Assembly: GCA_018662825.1 (NCBI GenBank)
Contig: JABJFI010000019.1
Coordinates: 1-45,176 of the forward strand
Length of the DNA stretch: 45,176 bases
Direction: 5' to 3'
Origin: Methanobacteriota archaeon
GTDB taxonomy: Archaea; Thermoplasmatota; Poseidoniia; Poseidoniales; Poseidoniaceae
Every line of letters begins with the position of its first letter. Within the stretch, counting starts at the first letter, position 1. The notes below the pieces were generated by a model. It worked only from the letters and a program-made list of their open reading frames with translations. It made no database searches and was not told the DNA's origin. The translations under genes were made by a program, and so were the position numbers. This document shows positions 8,529-37,789 of the stretch, in pieces.

Positions 8529-9257
8529 GTGCCTAATCCCTTGACCATGAACTTTGAGCAGCTCAATACATCGGGATGGGCAAAAACCTATCTTGTAGTA
8601 GACGCTGATTCCCAAAAGGCTGCTCTTATTGACCCAGTCTATGATTTCGTGGATATTTATCTTGAGGCATTAAATAAACGAGGCTTAGAACTTGAATATG
8701 CCATTGCAACACATACTCATGCTGACCACATCACAGCATGCTATTCCCTGCGTGAACAAACTGGATGTGAGTATGCGATGTGGAAGGATACTGCTAGTTT
8801 GAAAGTCTCACATTATCTCGATGATGGTGAAATTCTAATGCTTGGATCAACTCCACTCAAAATACACTATGCGCCAGGCCATACCAGCGATCATGTACTC
8901 CTCGAATCCCCCACCTGCTTGTTTACTGGTGATTTCCTATTTACTGGCCAAGGGGGGGTAGGCCGAGATGATTTGCCAAGTGGTCGTGTGAAATCTCACT
9001 GGGAATCACTAAAAATATTGGATTCACTTGATGGAGAACTTGATGTTTGTACAGGCCACGACGCGCCGGATACAGCAATGCAAAATCTTGAATGGAACCG
9101 CAATAACAATCCAGTTCTCGGCATGACTTCCTTCGACGAATTTGAGGCATGGCAAAGCAAAATCACCGCAAGTTTGGGCTCGGTTTCCAAAATAAAAACA
9201 GCACTTCCGGCTAATCTTTTTGCGGAAATTCCTGAATCAATTCCTTGGATGGAATAG
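8529..9257 (+). CDS. MBL-fold hydrolase, ETHE1-like persulfide dioxygenase
   Basis: Predicted non-heme iron enzyme that oxidises glutathione-type or other low-molecular persulfides to sulfite, detoxifying sulfide. The metal motif THTHADH is clear, followed by APGHTSDH and the ETHE1-specific TGDFLFTGQGGVGRDD; a further ligand is in CTGHD. The tail NRNNNPVL resembles the conserved asparagine-rich signature of the family. Length (242 aa) fits. The GTG at 8529 gives the full domain; ATG 8547 is an alternative. GGAGGGGGT at 8505-8513 is a possible ribosome site. Exact thiol substrate is unknown. Confidence 0.87.
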   Translation: MPNPLTMNFEQLNTSGWAKTYLVVDADSQKAALIDPVYDFVDIYLEALNKRGLELEYAIATHTHADHITACYSLREQTGCEYAMWKDTASLKVSHYLDDGEILMLGSTPLKIHYAPGHTSDHVLLESPTCLFTGDFLFTGQGGVGRDDLPSGRVKSHWESLKILDSLDGELDVCTGHDAPDTAMQNLEWNRNNNPVLGMTSFDEFEAWQSKITASLGSVSKIKTALPANLFAEIPESIPWME

Positions 9258-9270
9258 AAAATACTACTCT

Positions 9271-10452
9271 TTAAAGCGGGTTGTCAGGGATTTTCCCTCG
9301 ATTTTCACTCGATGGAAGTTCTTGAAGGTCTGCAAAACTGAGTTGCTCAATCGGTGAGTCATTTATATTGTTAAGACGCTCTTTCATTACCATTCTAACA
9401 TGGAATTCGATACGCCCCTTGCTTCGAGTTAAGTCGTATGAGAGAGGATTGAGCAATTCTATGACTTGAGCTCCAAATTCATCTCGAACAAAAGACCCCC
9501 TCCATATTGAGTAGCCCCATCGGAAAGCGATTCCAACTACAGCAGCACCATACAATAGTGTGAGGACAGTAAGGGCAAATAATACTGCATTACCATCCCT
9601 CGCTTCATCGAGTAAATTCCGTGCAATCAAAAATAATAATCCAATTCCAACCACTGGTTTTAGAATACTTTCAAGCCATTGGTCAACCGGAACCAACCGA
9701 CCCTTTGAAGGGTCGACAAAAACCAAATCAGATTCAAATGCGGCATTGAGTACACCTAAGGCTCCGAGCAAGACAATGTACAGACCTGTAGAAAACATTA
9801 TTTCGATGCCCCAAGAATCAAATTCAAAGGTCCAGTGAACCATTAGCCATGCAAAAAGACCCAAGAAAGCGCCTTGCGGGACATGGTTGAAGTGAATGAC
9901 ATGTTGAGAGAACTCATTCATTTTTGCCTTATCTTCAGACAATCCTCGATGAGGTTTAGGAATATGAATAATCTGCCAATGCATAATTTGTTCAATAGCC
10001 TTCAGGCCACGAACAAGAATCTCTTTACGAATAAAAACATATTCAATTACCAACAAAACTGGAAAACCAATCAATATTACCGGCAGTGCCATAATCACTG
10101 CCAATGGGAAGATGATAATTGCAGGTAGTAGCAGAAAGTGTGATACTGTCAAGGGGTGGAAAAGATCTGCTTCGATGAGTCGTTGATGACTAGGGCGAAT
10201 GTGTAGGCTTCTCGCAACATCATCCAAAGTGGCGCGAAATGGAGCAACTTGACGACCAGCATCAATTATCTGCAAGACCGTATTTCGATACTGAGATGCT
10301 TCATGTCCAACTCCAATAAACAATCTCCACCCCAAGCGCATAGGCAAGGCAAGTATCAACGGTATTGACAGCAAACTTGCAGCCCATATCAATGTACTCG
10401 AATCAACTGTGGTCACGTGTATCAACTTGCCCACACCGGGGGAGTGTTTCAA
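9271..10452 (-). CDS. Polytopic membrane protein of unknown function
   Basis: About 393 residues with six or more hydrophobic helices: one near the N-terminus (LIWAASLLSIPLILAL), a pair around 115-150 (FLLLPAIIIFPLAVIMALPVI), then LGLFAWLMVHW, STGLYIVLLGALGVL, and two late helices near 285-325. The C-terminal ~65 residues are soluble and end near a run of Ser/Pro. The start is uncertain because only TTG (10452) and in-frame GTGs (10434, 10416) are available. It is divergent from serA. No family recognised. Confidence 0.68.
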   Translation of the reverse strand: MKHSPGVGKLIHVTTVDSSTLIWAASLLSIPLILALPMRLGWRLFIGVGHEASQYRNTVLQIIDAGRQVAPFRATLDDVARSLHIRPSHQRLIEADLFHPLTVSHFLLLPAIIIFPLAVIMALPVILIGFPVLLVIEYVFIRKEILVRGLKAIEQIMHWQIIHIPKPHRGLSEDKAKMNEFSQHVIHFNHVPQGAFLGLFAWLMVHWTFEFDSWGIEIMFSTGLYIVLLGALGVLNAAFESDLVFVDPSKGRLVPVDQWLESILKPVVGIGLLFLIARNLLDEARDGNAVLFALTVLTLLYGAAVVGIAFRWGYSIWRGSFVRDEFGAQVIELLNPLSYDLTRSKGRIEFHVRMVMKERLNNINDSPIEQLSFADLQELPSSENRGKIPDNPL

Positions 10453-26281: not shown

Positions 26282-29200
26282 ATGTGCACGGTGTTCAAAA
26301 TGTCTCTAAGTCACAATCAAATGGCCTATGCTGCAATCATCTCTACATTGATTTTTGGTTCGCTTTTTGTTGGTTTTTCCGGCTTATTCCAAACAAGTGA
26401 AGGAATTGGTGGATTCGAAAGTGCCGCAGAAGAAGACTTGATTGGCTCAGGAACTGGAGTGTCTGATGCAGTAGACACGGACGGAGACGGATTATCGGAT
26501 ATACTTGAGAATACACAATATGGAACAGACCCTGATCTCCCTGATACTGATTTCGATGGGATGAGCGATGGTTGGGAAGTCGCCCATGGTCTAAACCCAA
26601 ATGATAATGGAGAATCCGATGATCTCCTTCAAGACCCTTCACAAATTGAGGACACTGATGATGCGAGTATAGAAAACGAAACAGATTCATGGCCTGACCC
26701 TGAACAAGGTCCAAACGGCGACCCAGACCATGATGGACTTACAAATAAGGCTGAAGAGGAACTTGGAACTGACCCTCAACGCTCAGACACAGATAACGAT
26801 GGACTTAATGACCGGTGGGAATCCATTTATTCGCATTCAGTCCAAACACCTGGCGGAGATGTGACTCTATTCAATCCACTAAACGGCAATTGGGATTGCT
26901 TACTACTCGACCAAGCAATGGAGGATACTCTGTCAACATTCTATGATTCGGATGAGGCGTTACCATCTTGGGATGAACTTGCCAACCCTGAGGGCTCACA
27001 TTCTTGCGATATGGTACTCGATACCGATGAAGATGGTCTTCCAAATTTCCAAGAAGAACTTTATGGCACAAATCCAACAACTCGGGATTCCGATATGGAT
27101 TTGCTTGACGATATTGTAGAAATTGGAAATCTCACAGCAACCTTACTTACAGGAGTTGGTGAAAATTGTAATGTCCCTCTTCTTGACCCAATTACTCGTG
27201 AATCCCCATTTGCCGGTGTTGACCCCTCGTGGTTCTTGATGGATATGGATGGGGATGGATTCCTCAACGGCCCATCGGATTGGGACACCGACGGCGATGG
27301 AATGCCAGATGGTTTCGAATTTTGTTACTCAAATTCGGCCGACCACCCTTCTAAACAAATCACTCCAACAATTCTTTCGAGCCACACATTGAATCCTTCT
27401 AATGCCTCTGATGGCTATGGAGATTGGGACGAAGACGGATTGAATAATTTTGAAGAATACCAAGTTGCAAATCTGTTTGGTCCAACCAATTTCACTTCAC
27501 CTTGGCGCCTCGACACCGACCTTGATGGAATGCCAGATGGTTGGGAATCTACCAATGGCCTTCATCCACGTGATGGTGCTAACGGAGATGTCGACCCAGA
27601 CCATGATGGCTGGGATGTTGACGGAGATGGTGGAGTCTTTTACAGCACTCTTGAATCAACAACAATTGTCATTGGAATTGATGTTTTGAAAGACCAATGG
27701 GTAGAAGCCAATGCAACAGTTGCTCGTGGGCAGATTACGTTGGCAGGTGGTCAAAAGCAAACCATTGCTATGATTGCACCGGTTTCCGGCTATGTCTATC
27801 AAATCGATGTCAGTATTGGGCAAGCAGTAGAATCGAGATTATTCCAATGGATGGAAATTGTAGAACCGGAAGAACAATTCACAAACCTCATGGAATACAA
27901 CGCTCGAGACCAAGATGGTGATGGAATCGCGGAAGGTCGTTCGACTGACCCACTTAATCCTGATACTGACGGTGATGGCCTATTGGACGGAATTGAAGTC
28001 ATGGGCTGGGAAATATTGGTCGTTAACAACGGTGTAATCAAAACATGGGTCACATCAGATCCAGGTTTGTACGATACCGATGAAGATGGTCTTTCAGACT
28101 ATGATGAATTTGCAAATGTTTGTGCAAGTGGTTCAAATGCATCGAATCCAGATACAGATGGAGATGGGGAACTCGACCAAATAGAGGCATTGACTGGATA
28201 TTCTTGGGAAGGTATTGCATATTTCACGAGCCCATGCATGTTTGATACCGACAATGATGGCCTTGAAGATGGTGAAGAAGTCATTGCTGGTAAAGATAAT
28301 TTCCTAACCCATGCAAATAATTCCGATACTGATAATGACAGCTTAGTCGATGGTAACGAAGTTCTGTTTGTCCCACGCCCATTCCAAGACCCTACTAATC
28401 CACTCCTCAATGATACCGATTCAGATGGTATGCTAGATGGTTGGGAAATGCAGGTCAAATCTGCTGAAGATAATACTAACTCGCATAGTTTGTGGGTTGC
28501 AACATCTTCATGGCAGAGACCTGGTTGTGTATCTTCCCAAAACAACGATTGTAGCATGGAAGCGGGAGGCTATGTTTGGCAGAATAACCTAGGTGGTTTC
28601 GTCAATGAAAAGAAGTTCAGCGTATCGGAAATGAACCTTACCGGATTTGTAGTCCCGTTGAACGATTGGTGTAATTGTAATGGCCGTTGGGCCTTAGACC
28701 CTGCACTTGACTCTCTCAAAGATGATACTTTTGACATAGACAATGATTCTCTTGCAAACGGTGCTGAAGCACCTGATAAGTGGAATACAAACCCTGTTGA
28801 TGATGATACCGACAATGATGGCCTCCCTGATGGATGGGAAGTCTATTACTCAGGGCTCGCTCTCGAAAATGGTCTGGTCGATAATGGGACCATTGATGCC
28901 TACGGTGCTCGTGGTGTGATGGACCCTTCTATGCCGGACAGCGATTTGGATGGAATAATGGATGGGGAAGAAGACCCTGATGATGATGGATTGAATCGTT
29001 CAGGACTGATAAAGAAGTACTGTTCTGGATATAATGATACATCTAACTCTGATTGCAATATTGACCCTGACACTCCTGACGGAAAGAAATTCTACGATAA
29101 CCTCGAGAATTATACAAATCTTGAGGAAAAGCAAAATGGAACTAATCCAATTACCAACGATACAGATGGTGATGGTTGGAATGACGGTCCAGAAGTTTAT

Positions 29201-29401
29201 TATCAAGATCATGACGATGATGGTATGGCAACAGGTTGGGAATATCACTTCCAGTTTGACCCTGATGACCCTGCTGATCGTATGATTGACACTGATGGTG
29301 ATGGACACGTCAATTTCTGTGAATTCAAATGGGATACTAACCCAAGAAACCCTACCAGTTTCCCTGGCCAAGGTGAATTGTGCGACCCATTTGCACAATG
29401 A
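26282..29401 (+). CDS. Giant secreted protein of thrombospondin type 3-like calcium repeats
   Basis: About 1039 residues (ATG 26282; ATG 26300 also possible). A single hydrophobic stretch near residues 14-36 (MAYAAIISTLIFGSLFVGF) exports or anchors it. The rest is built from more than twenty acidic repeats of the form DTDGDGLxDGxE, often followed by GTDP or NPxxxD. Such repeats bind Ca2+ through the Asp side chains and make stiff rods. A repeat-free stretch near 475-535 (WVEANATVARGQITLAGGQK) reads as a beta-rich insert. There is no C-terminal helix, so any anchoring is N-terminal. Asn-x-Ser/Thr sites are frequent. Role as adhesin, coat or stalk is inference. It is followed closely by a PKD-like anchored protein. 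Confidence 0.88.
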   Translation: MCTVFKMSLSHNQMAYAAIISTLIFGSLFVGFSGLFQTSEGIGGFESAAEEDLIGSGTGVSDAVDTDGDGLSDILENTQYGTDPDLPDTDFDGMSDGWEVAHGLNPNDNGESDDLLQDPSQIEDTDDASIENETDSWPDPEQGPNGDPDHDGLTNKAEEELGTDPQRSDTDNDGLNDRWESIYSHSVQTPGGDVTLFNPLNGNWDCLLLDQAMEDTLSTFYDSDEALPSWDELANPEGSHSCDMVLDTDEDGLPNFQEELYGTNPTTRDSDMDLLDDIVEIGNLTATLLTGVGENCNVPLLDPITRESPFAGVDPSWFLMDMDGDGFLNGPSDWDTDGDGMPDGFEFCYSNSADHPSKQITPTILSSHTLNPSNASDGYGDWDEDGLNNFEEYQVANLFGPTNFTSPWRLDTDLDGMPDGWESTNGLHPRDGANGDVDPDHDGWDVDGDGGVFYSTLESTTIVIGIDVLKDQWVEANATVARGQITLAGGQKQTIAMIAPVSGYVYQIDVSIGQAVESRLFQWMEIVEPEEQFTNLMEYNARDQDGDGIAEGRSTDPLNPDTDGDGLLDGIEVMGWEILVVNNGVIKTWVTSDPGLYDTDEDGLSDYDEFANVCASGSNASNPDTDGDGELDQIEALTGYSWEGIAYFTSPCMFDTDNDGLEDGEEVIAGKDNFLTHANNSDTDNDSLVDGNEVLFVPRPFQDPTNPLLNDTDSDGMLDGWEMQVKSAEDNTNSHSLWVATSSWQRPGCVSSQNNDCSMEAGGYVWQNNLGGFVNEKKFSVSEMNLTGFVVPLNDWCNCNGRWALDPALDSLKDDTFDIDNDSLANGAEAPDKWNTNPVDDDTDNDGLPDGWEVYYSGLALENGLVDNGTIDAYGARGVMDPSMPDSDLDGIMDGEEDPDDDGLNRSGLIKKYCSGYNDTSNSDCNIDPDTPDGKKFYDNLENYTNLEEKQNGTNPITNDTDGDGWNDGPEVYYQDHDDDGMATGWEYHFQFDPDDPADRMIDTDGDGHVNFCEFKWDTNPRNPTSFPGQGELCDPFAQ

Positions 29402-29464
29402 TTTGGCTCCTAAATCATGCATATTGTCCGAACATTGATGTTTGGTTGTTGCAGAGATGAATAC

Positions 29465-31000
29465 ATGGGGGAACCAAGAAGATGGGTAATGTTCGCACTC
29501 TTGTGCTTGCTCATTCCACTCTACCAAGCCCCTCTTGTTCAAGCTGTACCAAATCGCAATTCACCTGATTTGACTTTTTTCCAACAGGATGGAATGTCAT
29601 TTAACGAGACGTTGTATTTGAATGGCAGTTCTGATTTCCCCTTGACCGATTCTGAATGGCTTTTAGTTCTTCATAGTTCTAATAACTCACTTGTACAGTT
29701 GGATTCTGGCAAACTAACCAGTGTGACAGCAGTTAGTGAAGATAGGTGGGATTGGGAACTTGAACTGAACATTTCGTCCTATGACTGCACTTGTGAACTA
29801 ATTATCACCGATTTCAAACCCAATCACCCGATTCAAGTTTCAAGAATTGTATATCTTGGTTCTCAAAATCATCATCCTTTTATTCTCCCGTTCCATCCTC
29901 CCTTTTTACTCCTTTCAGATCACGATATTGAACTTGAAATACCTGTGATTTCTCCACAACAAACCAGTTCGGAGGTATTTGTGAACTTGGGAGTATGTTC
30001 TGCTCCTGATGGAATCTGTCTTGGTGAAATGGTAGACTTTTCCAATTTCAATTTGAGTTCCAACACTCAGTCCTTGCAACTTTTATTCGAGCAGGACAAT
30101 CTTGACCTTGATGACGGATATTGGCTTTTCAACATCACCGTAGTCGATTCCCTCTTACGCTCTTCGAATACAGAATATTTTCTCTTGCTCATTGATCAAA
30201 ACATTCCGCAAGTAACTTTGGCATGTGATCTTGATTCTATCGCTGTTTCTGGAGATTTAACTGAAACTAATTCAAGCGTTAATACAGTCAAAGAAAATTC
30301 ACCAATTTCCTTTTCAGCATCAGTAGAGGATGGATATTTGGGTGGCGAGAATGTCCTTACTTGGACATTACTTCTACCGGACGGCTCACGTCGCCCTTTG
30401 ACATCCGATGAGAGAGTATCGGATACACTGATTTCATTGAATCCAGATGTACCAGGTACTTGGGTTGTGGAATTATTAGTTCGAGACACTGTTGGCTGGT
30501 TAGTCCATTCTTCAGTTCAATTTGAAGTTGAGAATCTAGCACCAGTCATCCAATTAGAATTGGACACATTTGTATTAACTGAAGGTTCAATCGTCACACT
30601 AACTTCGGGAGATGTATGGGAACTCAACAGCAGCAAAACCTCTGATACAATCAATGATGATTCAGATTTACTTCACACATGGTATGTGAATGGCAATACT
30701 TTGGTTACTGGAAAATCCACCTTACAATCGTCAGATTTTTCTGAAACAGGTACTTACGATGTTCGTTTGGTTGTACAAGACAATGATGGAGCAAGCAGTG
30801 AAATTTCATTCCAAGTACATATTTCAGATGTAGCCACATCGAATACAATGAGTACACAGGCACTAATGCTCTCAGGTTCAGTGGTAATTATTGCTATTAT
30901 TCTCATTGGATTCTTGGTTAATACATCTAGAAAACATGCAAATCAAACCGTTGTTCCTAAATGGGTTGCCAAAGAATCAGCGAAGGATTCCGAAGATTAG
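29465..31000 (+). CDS. Membrane-anchored surface protein with PKD-like domain
   Basis: 511 residues. A signal helix (VMFALLCLLIPLYQAPLVQA) is followed by about 430 residues of beta-type sequence outside, then a C-terminal helix (LMLSGSVVIIAIILIGFLV) and a short basic tail inside. Residues ~370-465 resemble a PKD/Ig-like domain, with an Ala-Pro-Val start and the closing GTYDVRLVVQDNDGASSE. Many NxS/T sites. The start is ATG 29465 as the upstream codons give no signal-like sequence. It lies 63 bases after the calcium-repeat gene and is likely cotranscribed, which suggests that the two act together at the surface. Confidence 0.78.
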   Translation: MGEPRRWVMFALLCLLIPLYQAPLVQAVPNRNSPDLTFFQQDGMSFNETLYLNGSSDFPLTDSEWLLVLHSSNNSLVQLDSGKLTSVTAVSEDRWDWELELNISSYDCTCELIITDFKPNHPIQVSRIVYLGSQNHHPFILPFHPPFLLLSDHDIELEIPVISPQQTSSEVFVNLGVCSAPDGICLGEMVDFSNFNLSSNTQSLQLLFEQDNLDLDDGYWLFNITVVDSLLRSSNTEYFLLLIDQNIPQVTLACDLDSIAVSGDLTETNSSVNTVKENSPISFSASVEDGYLGGENVLTWTLLLPDGSRRPLTSDERVSDTLISLNPDVPGTWVVELLVRDTVGWLVHSSVQFEVENLAPVIQLELDTFVLTEGSIVTLTSGDVWELNSSKTSDTINDDSDLLHTWYVNGNTLVTGKSTLQSSDFSETGTYDVRLVVQDNDGASSEISFQVHISDVATSNTMSTQALMLSGSVVIIAIILIGFLVNTSRKHANQTVVPKWVAKESAKDSED

Positions 31001-32440: not shown

Positions 32441-33625
32441 ATGAACTGGTTTTCTATTTTGGAACGTCAGGCCTTGTGGCGTCCCGAAACCGCTGAACAG
32501 TTTCGTCTATCGGAGCATGACGCTGTAGAATTGTACACGAATGCCCCCATTCACCAACTGATGAATGCTGCGCATCAAAGGCGCAATGCAATGCATGATT
32601 CTACTAAGGTCACCTATCTTATCGATAGGAATATCAATTACACTAATATCTGCACAATTAATTGCCAATTTTGTTCTTTTTATCGACCTCCAGGTCATGA
32701 TGAAATATATACACAAACCACTGAACAGATATCAGAGCGTATGAAGGAATTAGAAGATATTGAAGGTGTTCGAATATTGATGCAGGGCGGTGTAAACCCG
32801 GAGTTACCATTTGAATGGTATGAGGAGTTAATCCGAGAACTTCGAAGGCTACATCCTAGTATTGCTCTTGATTGCTTTAGTCCAATTGAAATTGAAGGTA
32901 TTGCCGAGGTCAGTAAACTTTCAACACTTGAAGTATTACTTCGATTACAAAATGCTGGCATGCATGGCTTGCCAGGTGGGGGTGCTGAAATGTTAGTAGA
33001 TGAAGTTAGAAAGGATGTCTCTCCGAAAAAAGGTGCACCAGATAATTGGCTTCGTGTAATGGAAGAGGCACAATCGCTTGGTTTGACGACTAGTGCCACA
33101 AATGTAATTGGTTTCGGTGAATCCTTGGCACAAAGAGTGCAGCACATGAGCCGCATTAGGGAATTACAAGACCGTTCACTAAAGCAATTCTCTTGCGGTT
33201 TCACATCTTTTATCGCCTGGCCTGTTCAATTGGAAGTCAACAGTTTTGGACGTCGTAATCGTGGTCAAAACAAAATTCAGTTAGGGGCTGGTTCCACAGA
33301 ATATTTGCGCCATGTGGCTGTTTCACGCCTATTTCTTGACAGTATCCCAAACATTCAATCTTCTTGGCCAACAATGGGTATTAAGATTGCTCAGATGGCA
33401 TTATTTGGTGGAGCGAATGATATTGGCTCGACAATGATGGAAGAAAATGTAGTTTCTGCTTCAGGTACCGACAAATTAAGTGCCTCGGAGCAAGAATTAC
33501 AAACTGTTATCCTCCGAGCAGGATTTATTCCTCAAAGACGAGACAGTGATTATGTATTCCTTGATACCCCCTTGAAAGGAAGTTCCCTAGACGAACTTCA
33601 ATCTCCACCACCTATGCAATATTGA
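32441..33625 (+). CDS. mqnC: Cyclic dehypoxanthinyl futalosine synthase (radical SAM)
   Basis: Radical SAM enzyme of the futalosine route to menaquinone; it cyclises dehypoxanthine futalosine. The cluster motif CTINCQFC (C71, C75, C78) is flanked by the MqnC-type DRNINYTNI and FYRPPGH. Further family signatures are MQGGVNPELPFEWYEELI, GLPGGGAEML, ATNVIGFGE, and the C-terminal GANDIGSTMMEENVVSASG. CofH (coenzyme F420) is the nearest alternative, but the YTNIC and SFYRPPG context fits MqnC. 394 residues, normal length. It begins ten bases after pepP. No other mqn gene is in the window. Confidence 0.9.
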   Translation: MNWFSILERQALWRPETAEQFRLSEHDAVELYTNAPIHQLMNAAHQRRNAMHDSTKVTYLIDRNINYTNICTINCQFCSFYRPPGHDEIYTQTTEQISERMKELEDIEGVRILMQGGVNPELPFEWYEELIRELRRLHPSIALDCFSPIEIEGIAEVSKLSTLEVLLRLQNAGMHGLPGGGAEMLVDEVRKDVSPKKGAPDNWLRVMEEAQSLGLTTSATNVIGFGESLAQRVQHMSRIRELQDRSLKQFSCGFTSFIAWPVQLEVNSFGRRNRGQNKIQLGAGSTEYLRHVAVSRLFLDSIPNIQSSWPTMGIKIAQMALFGGANDIGSTMMEENVVSASGTDKLSASEQELQTVILRAGFIPQRRDSDYVFLDTPLKGSSLDELQSPPPMQY

Positions 33626-33645: not shown

Positions 33646-36600
33646 TCATGATGTGGCGTTGTAGTAGACGACCCAAATTTCCGCGTGAATATTTCGCTGA
33701 CCATTACCAACTCCGTCGGATGGAACATATTCCTGTCCATTGTACAATCCACGATATGTGAGATGATTTACTCCCCCGTTCATATCGCTCCAACCAGTAA
33801 TATCGAAAGTCCATTGCTTGACATCTTGGCCAGCACACCATCCTGCACGTCCATATGGCCACGAACCGAATTGATTAGCGACAACTCCATTGCTCACTTC
33901 ATTTTCACATCCCTCGCTAGAGTGAACGATTGGATGCCATTCATAGGTCGTAAATCCATTTAATGAATAATGATGTTGATGGTCACAAAATTCGGCACAG
34001 TTTGCATTATCCTTTCCAAATCCATGGCCAGTAATAGTGGCGACAATTTCGACCTTGTCTGCCCAAGATGGAACTGTGAAATTTAGGTCGCGTGTATACT
34101 TTGATAGATCATTATAGGTGCCATCAAATTGACCACCGGTAAAGGCAAAGTCAGCACTTTGACCACGAAGTCCACTGCCCCAGTTACTTAGAAGGAAAGT
34201 TACCGTTAGGTCTCCCTTATTCGCTCCTCGATATTTGAATGTTCGATTATCATCATTTTCAAGCATAAAAAGATAGGGTGAAATATCGGTTAACCATTTG
34301 CCTTCACGCCCATATGTCGTAATCCATCGCATGTATTCAGTACCACATGCAGATGCATTATCACGGTCACAGATTCGTAAATTTGCTTCATAGTCCCATT
34401 CATGGCAACCTCCATAAGAACCATCGGATTTTTGGTGTCGATTCGTACGATCATCACACGCATGTTCATGATAGACTTCCAATGTATCATAATCAGTTAG
34501 GTTACTTGGAAATACAGCAGTTGTAGTTGTAGTATGACCACCTTGCCATCCACCAATATGGCGATAAAAATCTAGCACAGATATTTCTTCTATGCCTGTG
34601 TCAGAGCGCCGAATCTCGACAGGGAACTCAGCATTCCATTGATGTGGCTCGTGGATGAGGTGTTTGGGGTCATTATTCGATGAGGTCCATGCGTAAAGCG
34701 AACCAGTTTCCCGAGCCATTTGGAATCGGTCGATACCCATATACAGTGGTGAATTAAAGTTCGAAATCATTTGCCCTAATCCTCCGGAAATACTGTTTGC
34801 TCGCTGGTCAATGTAGTGAATCCGCCCATCCCATTCATCTTCTTCACTTGGATTAAGGGCATTCTCAACAGCCGCTTTTCGATTGACTATGTCAGTATGA
34901 TAAGTAGAATCGAATGAGCCAAAAAACAGATGCACATTATCAGGAAGACCACGAATAAATGGGCCAGGACTTTGGCCCCATGTTGCTGAATTTGAATTAC
35001 CACCTGAATCAGTGTACTTGAACAAAAAGAAATAGACATCATATCCAGTCCATTCCTGTTGGAAATAGAATGTTCCATCCAATGTTGGAACCGAGAAATG
35101 TGGTACTATTTGCATGGGGCCAGTTAGTGTGGAACCACTATTCCAACTGATTGGAGTTTGCACAATTGCACAACCCTCTGAATCAATGGTCCACCTTTCG
35201 GGTGAATTAGGACAAATATCGACATTGGCAAACACCCCATCATCATCTAAATCTGCACATCCCATTGCATTGACAACTAGCCCTAGAGGAGTACCAGGGC
35301 ATTGGTCTTCGAAATCATTTACTCCATCAGAGTCAGTATCTCTTTCAATAGCAGCGCATCCAACCTCATCGACTTGTGAGGCATTGTGCGGTGTTCGCGG
35401 GCATTCATCGAGAATATGCCCAGTAGCATTCACATCAAATACTCCATCGTTGTCATCATCATCGTCCTCAAGTTCATCCGAACAACCATCATCATCGTAG
35501 TCAGAAATATCATTTCGCACCCAATTAGTCACTCCCTTCGGACAGGAATCAACTTCATCGAATAATCCATCATTATCATCATCCAAATCCTCGTCTAAAT
35601 CCGAGCATCCATCTCCGTCCCAATCACTGAATGAACTGGAAGCCCAATTCAAAAGCCCCTTTGGACACGAATCTAAATCATCTAATACCCCGTCATTATC
35701 ATCATCTAAATCCTCATCCGCATCATGGCACCCATCGGTATCATAATCGGCATCTGGTGTGCTAATCCATCCAAAGGAGGTGGGACATAGGTCGAAGTCA
35801 TCCACGACTCCATCATTATCGTCGTCGAGATCTTCTTCAAGGTCGTGACATCCATCGTTGTCTTGATCACTTGCAACAGTAGAACCCCATCCATCCGATT
35901 CTCCATGGCCATTTGGGCATCGGTCATTCACATCTAAAATGCCATCACCATCGGAGTCACCACCTGAATTTTCAAGGACAACTTGTGTTGAGAAGGTATC
36001 ACTTTTCGGGTCAAATTCTCCACATTCTACCACGGTTTCAATAGTAATAGATTCAGATATTTCGGAAAAATCAAGCAGAACTTTCCATGTACCATCGTCA
36101 AGAACATTTGCTGATTTACTCTGTCCAAAGCCATAATTCACCGCCAAGGAACAAGTTGAAAGCGAATTATGTGCAACACTTCCCTCAAACCAGATAATTG
36201 AGGGTTCCTCGAGAGGGATAATCACAGGAGCCGAAAGTACTGGAGCATCTTCTATCGGAGGAATGATGGTGATAGTATGAAAAAGAACATTGGGTTGAGG
36301 TTCAACAAATATAGCACCATTGGTGGGAACGAATTTCACTTGTAATGCATAATCTCCGAGTTCCTCCGGAATAAAACTCAACTGAAATCCAAGTGGATTA
36401 GATTCCCATTCATAGGATTCAAACAGTGATATTTTTGGAGTAATTATCGTAGGTTCAGCAGTCCAATCATCTCCTTCACTATCCACAATGATAGAGAAAA
36501 CTACAGAAGTTCCATCGAGCATCTTAGTATCAGGATTAACACCCCATTCGACAGATAGTTGAACTGTTTTTACAAGGTCCTCACTGTCAAGAGTTTCATC

Positions 36601-36684
36601 TTCATTTACTTCAACTCCTCCGAAACAACCCGATAATAGTAAAATGCCGGTGAGGAGGAAAGCAGCCAAAGAACGCCTGTGCAT
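33646..36684 (-). CDS. Lipoprotein with calcium repeats and a PNGase F-like C-terminal domain
   Basis: 1012 residues from ATG 36684, chosen because it opens directly with a lipoprotein signal: basic start, LLTGILLLSGC with lipid-attached C20. Residues ~25-265 are beta-type. Residues ~270-540 are Asp-rich type 3 repeats with cysteines (DGDGCSDLDEDLDDDNDG, DSCPKG). A region with DGTFYFQQEWTGYDVYFF follows. The last ~330 residues align with peptide-N-glycosidase F: GGCHEWDYEAN, ANCAEFCDHQHHYSLN and YGRAGWCAGQ. All three disulfide pairs of PNGase F are present; D764 and E898 match its Asp60 and Glu206, while Glu118 is replaced (Ser833). Predicted to cut N-glycans from glycoproteins at the cell surface. 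Activity is inference. Confidence 0.82.
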   Translation of the reverse strand: MHRRSLAAFLLTGILLLSGCFGGVEVNEDETLDSEDLVKTVQLSVEWGVNPDTKMLDGTSVVFSIIVDSEGDDWTAEPTIITPKISLFESYEWESNPLGFQLSFIPEELGDYALQVKFVPTNGAIFVEPQPNVLFHTITIIPPIEDAPVLSAPVIIPLEEPSIIWFEGSVAHNSLSTCSLAVNYGFGQSKSANVLDDGTWKVLLDFSEISESITIETVVECGEFDPKSDTFSTQVVLENSGGDSDGDGILDVNDRCPNGHGESDGWGSTVASDQDNDGCHDLEEDLDDDNDGVVDDFDLCPTSFGWISTPDADYDTDGCHDADEDLDDDNDGVLDDLDSCPKGLLNWASSSFSDWDGDGCSDLDEDLDDDNDGLFDEVDSCPKGVTNWVRNDISDYDDDGCSDELEDDDDDNDGVFDVNATGHILDECPRTPHNASQVDEVGCAAIERDTDSDGVNDFEDQCPGTPLGLVVNAMGCADLDDDGVFANVDICPNSPERWTIDSEGCAIVQTPISWNSGSTLTGPMQIVPHFSVPTLDGTFYFQQEWTGYDVYFFLFKYTDSGGNSNSATWGQSPGPFIRGLPDNVHLFFGSFDSTYHTDIVNRKAAVENALNPSEEDEWDGRIHYIDQRANSISGGLGQMISNFNSPLYMGIDRFQMARETGSLYAWTSSNNDPKHLIHEPHQWNAEFPVEIRRSDTGIEEISVLDFYRHIGGWQGGHTTTTTAVFPSNLTDYDTLEVYHEHACDDRTNRHQKSDGSYGGCHEWDYEANLRICDRDNASACGTEYMRWITTYGREGKWLTDISPYLFMLENDDNRTFKYRGANKGDLTVTFLLSNWGSGLRGQSADFAFTGGQFDGTYNDLSKYTRDLNFTVPSWADKVEIVATITGHGFGKDNANCAEFCDHQHHYSLNGFTTYEWHPIVHSSEGCENEVSNGVVANQFGSWPYGRAGWCAGQDVKQWTFDITGWSDMNGGVNHLTYRGLYNGQEYVPSDGVGNGQRNIHAEIWVVYYNATS
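35450..35880 (-). repeat. In-frame tandem repeat, about 120-123 bp period
   Basis: Four diverged copies encode the unit LDDDNDGVLDDLDSCPKG...DWDGDGCSDLDED. The marker TCATTATC recurs at about 35570, 35693 and 35813, giving spacings of 123 and 120 bases (41 and 40 codons). Each unit carries two calcium loops and a cysteine pair. Confidence 0.7.
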
Positions 36685-36727: not shown

Positions 36728-37789
36728 TCAAACGGAATCAGATTCTGTTCTTCCATCATTTGTAGGAAGTACAACAATGTTTGAACTTTCCCGCGGGTGA
36801 CTAACTGCCAATGGCCGAACCCACAATAATGGCCCACCTTTTGGACGCTGAATACTCACAATAATTTCCCAATGTATTCGGATTAATTCAGTAGAGACGG
36901 TTCCGGGCCAACTTAATTTAGGTGCTTCGAGAAGTATTTCACCATCATTGACATCACTTCGACCACCAAATTCCATGACGCGCATTGGCCTGAGAAAGAG
37001 ACCCCCCTGGACTTCTTGGTGCTCCATTGGGGCTTCTTCCCCGCCCCCGGTTCCATCATCGAGACCTATTTCCCAATGATGTGGCAATTCTGTGGTCAAG
37101 CCAGGTGGTGGCTGCATTGATTGACCTCTTTCCAATGCCCGAAACAATTCTTCTCTGGCAGGTGGAAGCGCCCCCACTCTCCATGTGATTTGAATACCAC
37201 TCCAATCATCGCGTATTACGGGGAAATCTATCCTGATTTTCAATGGTTCTCCGGCAGAAGGTTGTCCAATAATTTCTATTATTGGAGGTTCTGGGGATGA
37301 TTTGAGAAAGTTTCTCTGCTGAATCAAATCGGCTAGATTTGCTCCCACACGTAATGCTAATGGCGAGAAAAGAAGAGGAACTATGACTATGGCCAATAGT
37401 GGATAATCGAGTAATCCAATGCGAATAGTTCCAGTTCCAATACCAGGAATTCCGAAAGAACTCAAAATTGGTTCAACAAATAAATATCCAAGAGCAACTA
37501 AGAGAACAATCACGGTTTTAGAGATATAATTTCTCACTACGGAATGAATTGGATTTGGAGTTAGATACCACCCTCTACGTTGCTTTTTAACGATTAGTGG
37601 AGGTTTTGAATTTTCAAGATGATGACACTCTCTTCTTAATTCTGTATCGTCGATGAGTTCACCATCGAGTAAATATCGCTGCTCAATAAGCCAATTTTCT
37701 TCATCACCAAGTCGGAAACTTGGGGCATGTTCAACCAAGATTTCCATCAATTCTTCCTTGCTCCCATTTCCTACATCAAGTTCCTTCAC
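36728..37789 (-). CDS. Two-helix membrane protein of unknown function
   Basis: 353 residues from GTG 37789. The N-terminal ~85 residues are soluble (GSKEELMEILVEHAPSFRLG; QRRGWYLTPNP). Two membrane helices follow (VIVLLVALGYLFVEPIL and LLAIVIVPLLFSPLALRVG). The remainder is a soluble beta-rich domain with IRIDFPVIRDDWSGIQITWRV and a late RIHWEIIVSIQRP. There is no ribosome site before the GTG and the frame is open further upstream, so the true start may be an ATT at 37873 (see findings). It sits between ggr and the lipoprotein gene with short gaps. No family recognised. Confidence 0.7.
   Translation of the reverse strand: MKELDVGNGSKEELMEILVEHAPSFRLGDEENWLIEQRYLLDGELIDDTELRRECHHLENSKPPLIVKKQRRGWYLTPNPIHSVVRNYISKTVIVLLVALGYLFVEPILSSFGIPGIGTGTIRIGLLDYPLLAIVIVPLLFSPLALRVGANLADLIQQRNFLKSSPEPPIIEIIGQPSAGEPLKIRIDFPVIRDDWSGIQITWRVGALPPAREELFRALERGQSMQPPPGLTTELPHHWEIGLDDGTGGGEEAPMEHQEVQGGLFLRPMRVMEFGGRSDVNDGEILLEAPKLSWPGTVSTELIRIHWEIIVSIQRPKGGPLLWVRPLAVSHPRESSNIVVLPTNDGRTESDSV

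Follow-up and report, generated by a model that had tools for sequence, protein, structure and literature searches.

Marine Group II archaea, which rank among the most abundant archaea of the surface ocean, have not been cultured and probably feed mainly on protein. Glycoproteins are resistant to proteases, and amidases of the PNGase F/Ngly2 kind cut whole sugar trees off glycoproteins; the Ngly2 group has so far been reported from aquatic animals and bacteria. The locus studied here raises the question of whether such an archaeon displays an enzyme of this kind at its surface, and what the enzyme would serve. The window, namely, the whole stretch of 45,176 nucleotides that was analysed, covers positions 1 to 45,176 of contig JABJFI010000019.1 (GCA_018662825.1, Poseidoniaceae). 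An earlier note, made from the sequence alone, had read one of its genes as a surface lipoprotein on a calcium-type stalk, fused to a PNGase F-like domain, in a host that probably feeds on dissolved protein.

The open reading frame is real. Its ATG opens a lipobox signal (MHRRSLAAFLLTGILLLSGC), and the lipobox cysteine, C20, is invariant among 17 archaeal relatives. Two Ig-like domains, an acidic stalk, a thioredoxin-like domain and the amidase follow in this order from Cys20 (Table 1). The membrane-proximal region (residues 20-242) was modelled by AlphaFold with a pLDDT of 89.9, and its best Foldseek matches were tandem Ig and cadherin domains (E ~1e-7); we read the model as two putative Ig-like beta-sandwiches. 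The stalk carries 15 overlapping DxDxDG/N motifs that start at residues 243-478, and residues 237-510 (274 aa) contain 85 Asp/Glu against 7 Lys/Arg. Pfam TSP_3 scored below threshold there (E=0.0011, 19.1 bits versus a cut-off of 25), and Ca2+ sites are predicted by homology. In full-length archaeal members the N-terminus resembles a lipobox and DxDxDG motifs are numerous (7-12 per archaeal locus reaching the stalk), whereas bacterial members have none or at most two. The lipobox and the repeats thus bear out, as a prediction, the surface lipoprotein on a calcium-type (TSP3) stalk that had been proposed.

Table 1. Coordinates of the PNGase lipoprotein gene, its domains and active-site residues, and its two fixed neighbours in the window
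Feature	Position	Strand	Basis
PNGase lipoprotein gene, 1012 aa + stop	33646..36684	-	
Lipoprotein signal peptide, residues 1-20, up to lipobox Cys (LSG, then C20)	36625..36684	-	sequence
Membrane-proximal all-beta region, residues 20-242	35959..36627	-	AlphaFold, Foldseek
Thrombospondin type-3-like (DxDxDG) acidic stalk, residues 243-491	35212..35958	-	motif scan
Thioredoxin-like domain, residues 520-690	34615..35127	-	Foldseek; Cys scan
PNGase F-superfamily double jelly-roll amidase domain, residues 691-1012	33649..34614	-	Pfam, phmmer, AlphaFold, Foldseek, profile search
Pfam N-glycanase_C (PF09113) match	33754..34116	-	HMM search
W763-D764-Y765; D764 = PNGase F Asp60 = Ngly2 Asp421 (catalytic there)	34390..34398	-	alignment; PMC12753239
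H887 (TGHG) = Ngly2 His546; Trp191 in PNGase F	34024..34026	-	alignment; PMC12753239, PMC12381499
E898 = PNGase F Glu206 = Ngly2 Glu555 (catalytic there)	33991..33993	-	alignment; PMC12753239
R946 (GRAGWC) = PNGase F Arg248	33847..33849	-	alignment
CofH/MqnC-type radical SAM gene, fixed left neighbour across the order	32441..33625	+	
Gene of a 353-aa protein without assigned family, fixed right neighbour across the order	36728..37789	-	

The C-terminal likeness to PNGase F, previously noticed by eye, proved correct and well above chance. Of the two Pfam models, N-glycanase_C (PF09113) matched with E=1.9e-20 (73.6 bits versus a cut-off of 25), whereas N-glycanase_N (PF09112) gave no match in the protein at E up to 10, so the evidence for the N-terminal jelly-roll comes from profile and fold comparisons. 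Because the profile and fold alignments to PNGase F cover this region, the missing PF09112 match was read as limited sensitivity of the HMM. A single-sequence search of the PDB (phmmer) retrieved zebrafish Ngly2 (9lwg) at 9.5e-41 and PNGase F (1pnf) at 4.9e-5; with a profile of 57 relatives, 9lwg was found at 2.1e-99 and 1pnf/1pgs/3pms at 9e-31 to 3e-30 over ~300 residues. Residues 508-1012, as modelled by AlphaFold (mean pLDDT 90.6, pTM 0.89), matched 9lwg in Foldseek at 2.3e-33 and PNGase F structures at ~1e-14 to 1e-15, with a TM-score of 0.71-0.73 by target length to 3pms/1pgs/1pnf; PNGF-II and Bacteroides PNGases were also among the matches. The amidase domain has a predicted double jelly-roll fold in this model, as the earlier note had expected. 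Its proposed kinship with PNGase F holds at superfamily level, but the nearest solved relative is zebrafish Ngly2, an acid PNGase, and not PNGase F. The protein belongs to the Ngly2 type, having WDY, TGHG with His at the position of PNGase F Trp191, and a thioredoxin-like domain in front.

This thioredoxin-like domain had been missed in the first reading. It was recognised in the model of residues 508-1012, for which thioredoxin folds including 3hdc, 3drn, 4nmu and 3gl3 were matched with a probability of ~1. Residues 520-690 contain no cysteine and hence no CXXC/redox motif, and the model points to a redox-dead thioredoxin-like domain ahead of the amidase, as in Ngly2. The PA domain of Ngly2 is absent; in the AlphaFold model the thioredoxin-like fold is joined to the first jelly-roll mainly by a linker helix.

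The active-site motifs lie where the first reading had placed them, namely, CHEWDYE at 760, CAEFC at 896 and GRAGWC at 945. The alignment also upheld its three cysteine pairs (743/760, 896/900 and 926/950, matching PNGase F 51/56, 204/208 and 231/252) and its assignment of D764 and E898 as the equivalents of Asp60 and Glu206. H887, E898, R946, W949 and the six cysteines of the three pairs are invariant in 57/57 archaeal and bacterial relatives. D764 is found in 56/57; the exception (L117) is an alignment artefact, because CGEWDY is present further upstream, outside the aligned segment. Ngly2 is a proven PNGase whose D421A and E555A variants are inactive (PMC12753239), and the superfamily site has been described as an aromatic-Asp-positive/aromatic arrangement on one loop with His and Glu on another, PNGase F having Trp in place of this His (PMC12381499). 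The archaeal protein shows the same arrangement in W763-D764-Y765 and H887/E898. D764 and E898 are predicted to meet in one pocket, from alignment to two solved enzymes.

The sugar-binding side departs from the solved enzymes. The loop holding Ngly2 Trp480 and PNGase F Trp120 is GANKG in the archaea, without an aromatic residue; Trp480 is the aromatic of the second GlcNAc, and Ngly2 W480A retains only feeble activity (PMC12753239). Glu118 and Trp120 of PNGase F, which are supporting and not universal residues, are not kept (the loop is RGANKG), and Glu118 is apparently not kept in Ngly2 either, as judged from a gapped alignment. Column 824 is Gly in 16/19 archaeal rows and Tyr or Trp in 29/38 bacterial rows, and Trp835 occurs in 19/19 archaeal and 0/38 bacterial rows. 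Loop loss and Trp835 suggest that sugar recognition and glycan specificity may have changed in the archaea; the loop result is a prediction because the loop alignment is gapped. Ngly2 acts only at acid pH, for which its authors credit two histidines (PMC12753239). Their counterparts here are His887 and Tyr765, the latter, at the position of the second active-site histidine (H422), being Tyr in 19/19 archaeal rows; this would make a pH optimum nearer seawater plausible.

PF09113 matches were found in 146/293 genomes of the order to which the window belongs and in 139/171 genomes of its family, spanning 10/11 genera. Given that MAGs are incomplete, a gene present in almost every genome would give a figure close to the latter, and the gene is a family-wide trait rather than a one-off. 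Outside the family, matches were restricted to some genera of a second family and, within the same class, a single genus of a further family, and none was found outside the class in a 390-genome sample of the phylum. Apart from Marine Group II (Poseidoniaceae, Thalassarchaeaceae), the named relatives are bacterial; most come from Myxococcota and deltaproteobacterial bins, and Chloroflexota, UBP6 and others also occur. One branch splits archaea from bacteria in the careful tree (97/94; 98% of bootstrap trees), and a quick tree rooted on PNGase F nests the archaea among bacteria. The simplest reading is a single acquisition from bacteria before the class diversified, followed by mainly vertical descent and losses. 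The direction from bacteria to archaea is drawn mainly from nesting and taxon breadth, because the outgroup branch is very long. Direct transfer between archaea and animals is unsupported; Ngly2 falls among Chloroflexota, Deinococcus and Myxococcota, and the archaea stand on their own branch. There was no sign of a link to defence or phage; searches by tblastn retrieved nothing from phages and, from plasmids, only Deinococcus.

Two database records call for separate comment. The sequence labelled Deltaproteobacteria AH-558-G13 (L103, JAOMAZ010000001.1) was rejected as a bacterial member, since it has the gene order and the PNGase of Poseidoniaceae; the label of this single-cell genome is probably wrong. 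The title of a MAG named Klebsiella pneumoniae (L067, CAMAXZ010000009.1), which carries a Myxococcota-like PNGase, is probably wrong as well.

The gene has kept one place in the chromosome. The order in both families is TSP3 protein, PKD protein, aminopeptidase P, CofH, PNGase, 353-aa protein, FAD enzyme and topoisomerase. CofH and the 353-aa gene adjoin in 9/10 genomes without a PNGase match, with alignment ends 16-40 bp apart in eight genomes and 187 bp in one. Because the two genes sit side by side, the absence of the PNGase from these nine genomes is real and no assembly gap. The tenth genome (G025), of the same family as the window, has at the PNGase locus (L154:7893-8783) a 296-aa lipoprotein with the Ig-like region and TSP3 stalk and without the thioredoxin-like or PNGase domain; either the enzyme was lost with the stalk retained, or the gene is truncated.

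Among the neighbours, the 353-aa protein has no Pfam match and two likely membrane segments by eye. A second CofH/MqnC-type paralogue, ~33-35% identical, occurs in most genomes searched. At window positions 26282-30997 a 1039-aa protein whose TSP3_bac repeats are strong (2.5e-24) is encoded beside the PKD-domain protein; the former is well conserved across the order, and the latter evolves fast (20-60% identity) in the same place.

We infer that the protein is probably a surface PNGase of the Ngly2 type that removes N-glycans from outside glycoproteins so that peptidases reach the chain. The lipid anchor, two Ig-like domains and rigid TSP3-type (Ca2+) stalk would hold a catalytic head off the cell, facing seawater, and this head would combine the non-redox thioredoxin-like domain with the double jelly-roll amidase. 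D764 and E898, aided by W763, Y765, H887, R946, would hydrolyse the GlcNAc-Asn amide bond in N-glycosylated proteins or peptides of algae, animals or detritus. The glycan would be released whole, Asn would become Asp, and the many peptidases of the cell would have a bare chain to cut. Family, fold, residues, the anchor and stalk motifs, conservation and locus are established by computation; catalytic activity, the pH at which it is highest, a eukaryotic source of the substrate and the part played in nutrition are predicted. The genome has 12 Peptidase_S8 matches and no match to GH92, GH38, GH20 or Asparaginase_2 (the glycosylasparaginase family), so the peptide looks like the prize, and the evidence favours feeding on protein over feeding on glycan. 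Published accounts describe Marine Group II genomes as peptidase-rich and poor in glycoside hydrolases (PMC6864105, PMC6336850), in agreement with the protein-feeding host that the earlier note had supposed.

Several observations weigh against this reading. The GANKG loop and Trp835 may mean a different glycan specificity, the archaeon's own oligosaccharyltransferase makes a self substrate possible, the gene is an orphan whose fixed neighbours are housekeeping or unknown apart from aminopeptidase P, and the released glycans are without an obvious catabolic route. The enzyme might instead trim or turn over the archaeon's AglB-made N-glycans on S-layer or surface proteins, as a quality-control or remodelling PNGase, given that the genome encodes an STT3/AglB protein and that the archaeon's own glycoproteins are displayed on the surface where the enzyme would act. 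We regard this as unlikely: many relatives are without the gene and have clean empty sites, a pattern expected of an accessory feeding trait more than of a housekeeping gene, and the tested substrates of the superfamily are eukaryotic GlcNAc2-Asn N-glycans (PMC12381499). The STT3/AglB match itself (G000:C42 near 9122-9919, L131) belongs to a 3240-aa open frame, far above the usual AglB length.

Release of N-glycans in order to eat the sugar, as in bacteria with N-glycan loci, would agree with the enzyme class, which is that of the PNGase in the N-glycan gene cluster of Runella zeae (PMC12381499). The missing GH92, GH38 and GH20, the lack of any glycosidase among the scanned window genes and the few glycoside hydrolases in Marine Group II genomes (PMC6864105) make this very unlikely. 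A further reading is a PNGase-derived lectin or adhesin with a double jelly-roll, which would bind N-glycans and leave them uncut. The adhesin-like stalked architecture, the lost aromatic of the second-GlcNAc loop and the relative L154, which keeps the stalk without the enzyme, speak for it, but the catalytic Asp, Glu, His and Arg are conserved on both the archaeal and the bacterial side, and we hold this to be the least probable reading. De-N-glycosylation of outside glycoproteins for protein feeding remains our preferred reading.

The catalytic family is already known; a stalked archaeal form that lacks the PA domain, and its nearly universal presence across the family of the window, appear to be new. 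No paper on an archaeal PNGase of such kind and no assay of any archaeal member was found in the literature searched, which covered few subscription papers, and some members may already bear automatic database labels such as 'peptide-N-glycosidase F-related protein'. Two published Marine Group II surveys counted peptidases and glycoside hydrolases and left PNGases unmentioned (PMC6864105, PMC6336850). We tentatively propose, with slightly less than even confidence, that Marine Group II archaea have a distinct stalked Ngly2-type subfamily whose sugar subsite is altered, which came from bacteria in a single transfer and has stayed at one chromosomal locus. De-N-glycosylation of algal or animal glycoproteins would then be an ecotype-level step in how these abundant surface-ocean archaea use carbon, overlooked because the catalogues of carbohydrate enzymes and of peptidases with which their genomes were surveyed do not include PNGases. 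A conserved predicted surface PNGase gives a concrete, testable step in the use of algal protein by Marine Group II, and its presence or absence separates ecotypes. The finding also adds archaea to the Ngly2 group and supplies candidate PNGases whose sugar site is unusual.

Comparison with known systems places the archaeal protein among several relatives. Elizabethkingia PNGase F (1pnf) shares the double jelly-roll, Asp60/Glu206/Arg248 and three disulfides; however, identity is 18% by fold alignment, Trp191 stands where the archaeal protein has His887, there is no stalk, and the solved chain is without a thioredoxin-like domain. The Deinococcus radiodurans protein WP_010889584, named as a homologue in PMC12753239, corresponds to PNGaseDr of PMC12381499; it is 37% identical over 292 residues, has the WDY and TGHG motifs and lies near Ngly2 and Chloroflexota sequences in the tree. 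Unlike the archaeal protein, PNGaseDr has 654 aa and an alpha-helical spine with modules over the active site, like oyster PNGaseCg (PMC12381499). Six PNGases including PNGaseDr were assayed in that study; PNGaseL acted on all substrates, and the other five were narrower, most often active on RNase B and honeybee phospholipase A2 (PMC12381499). The lipoprotein PNGases of Myxococcota and related bacteria (for example, L052, L057 and L109) have lipoprotein-like N-termini and the same type of PNGase domain after an N-terminal region of similar size, but are mostly ~540-660 aa long, have <=2 DxDxDG motifs and mostly carry Tyr/Trp at column 824 where the archaea have Gly. Zebrafish Ngly2 (9lwg; PMC12753239) is the best match in sequence and fold, with the cysteine pairs, the thioredoxin-like domain without CXXC before the PNGase domain, and the equivalents of D421/E555/H546 all in common. 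Its 133-residue PA domain (residues 186-318; PMC12753239) is absent from the archaeal protein, in which Tyr765 replaces His422, Trp480 is without a counterpart, and a lipid anchor, Ig-like domains and a TSP3 stalk are added; Ngly2 works in the lysosome, whereas the archaeal protein is predicted to act at the cell surface in seawater.
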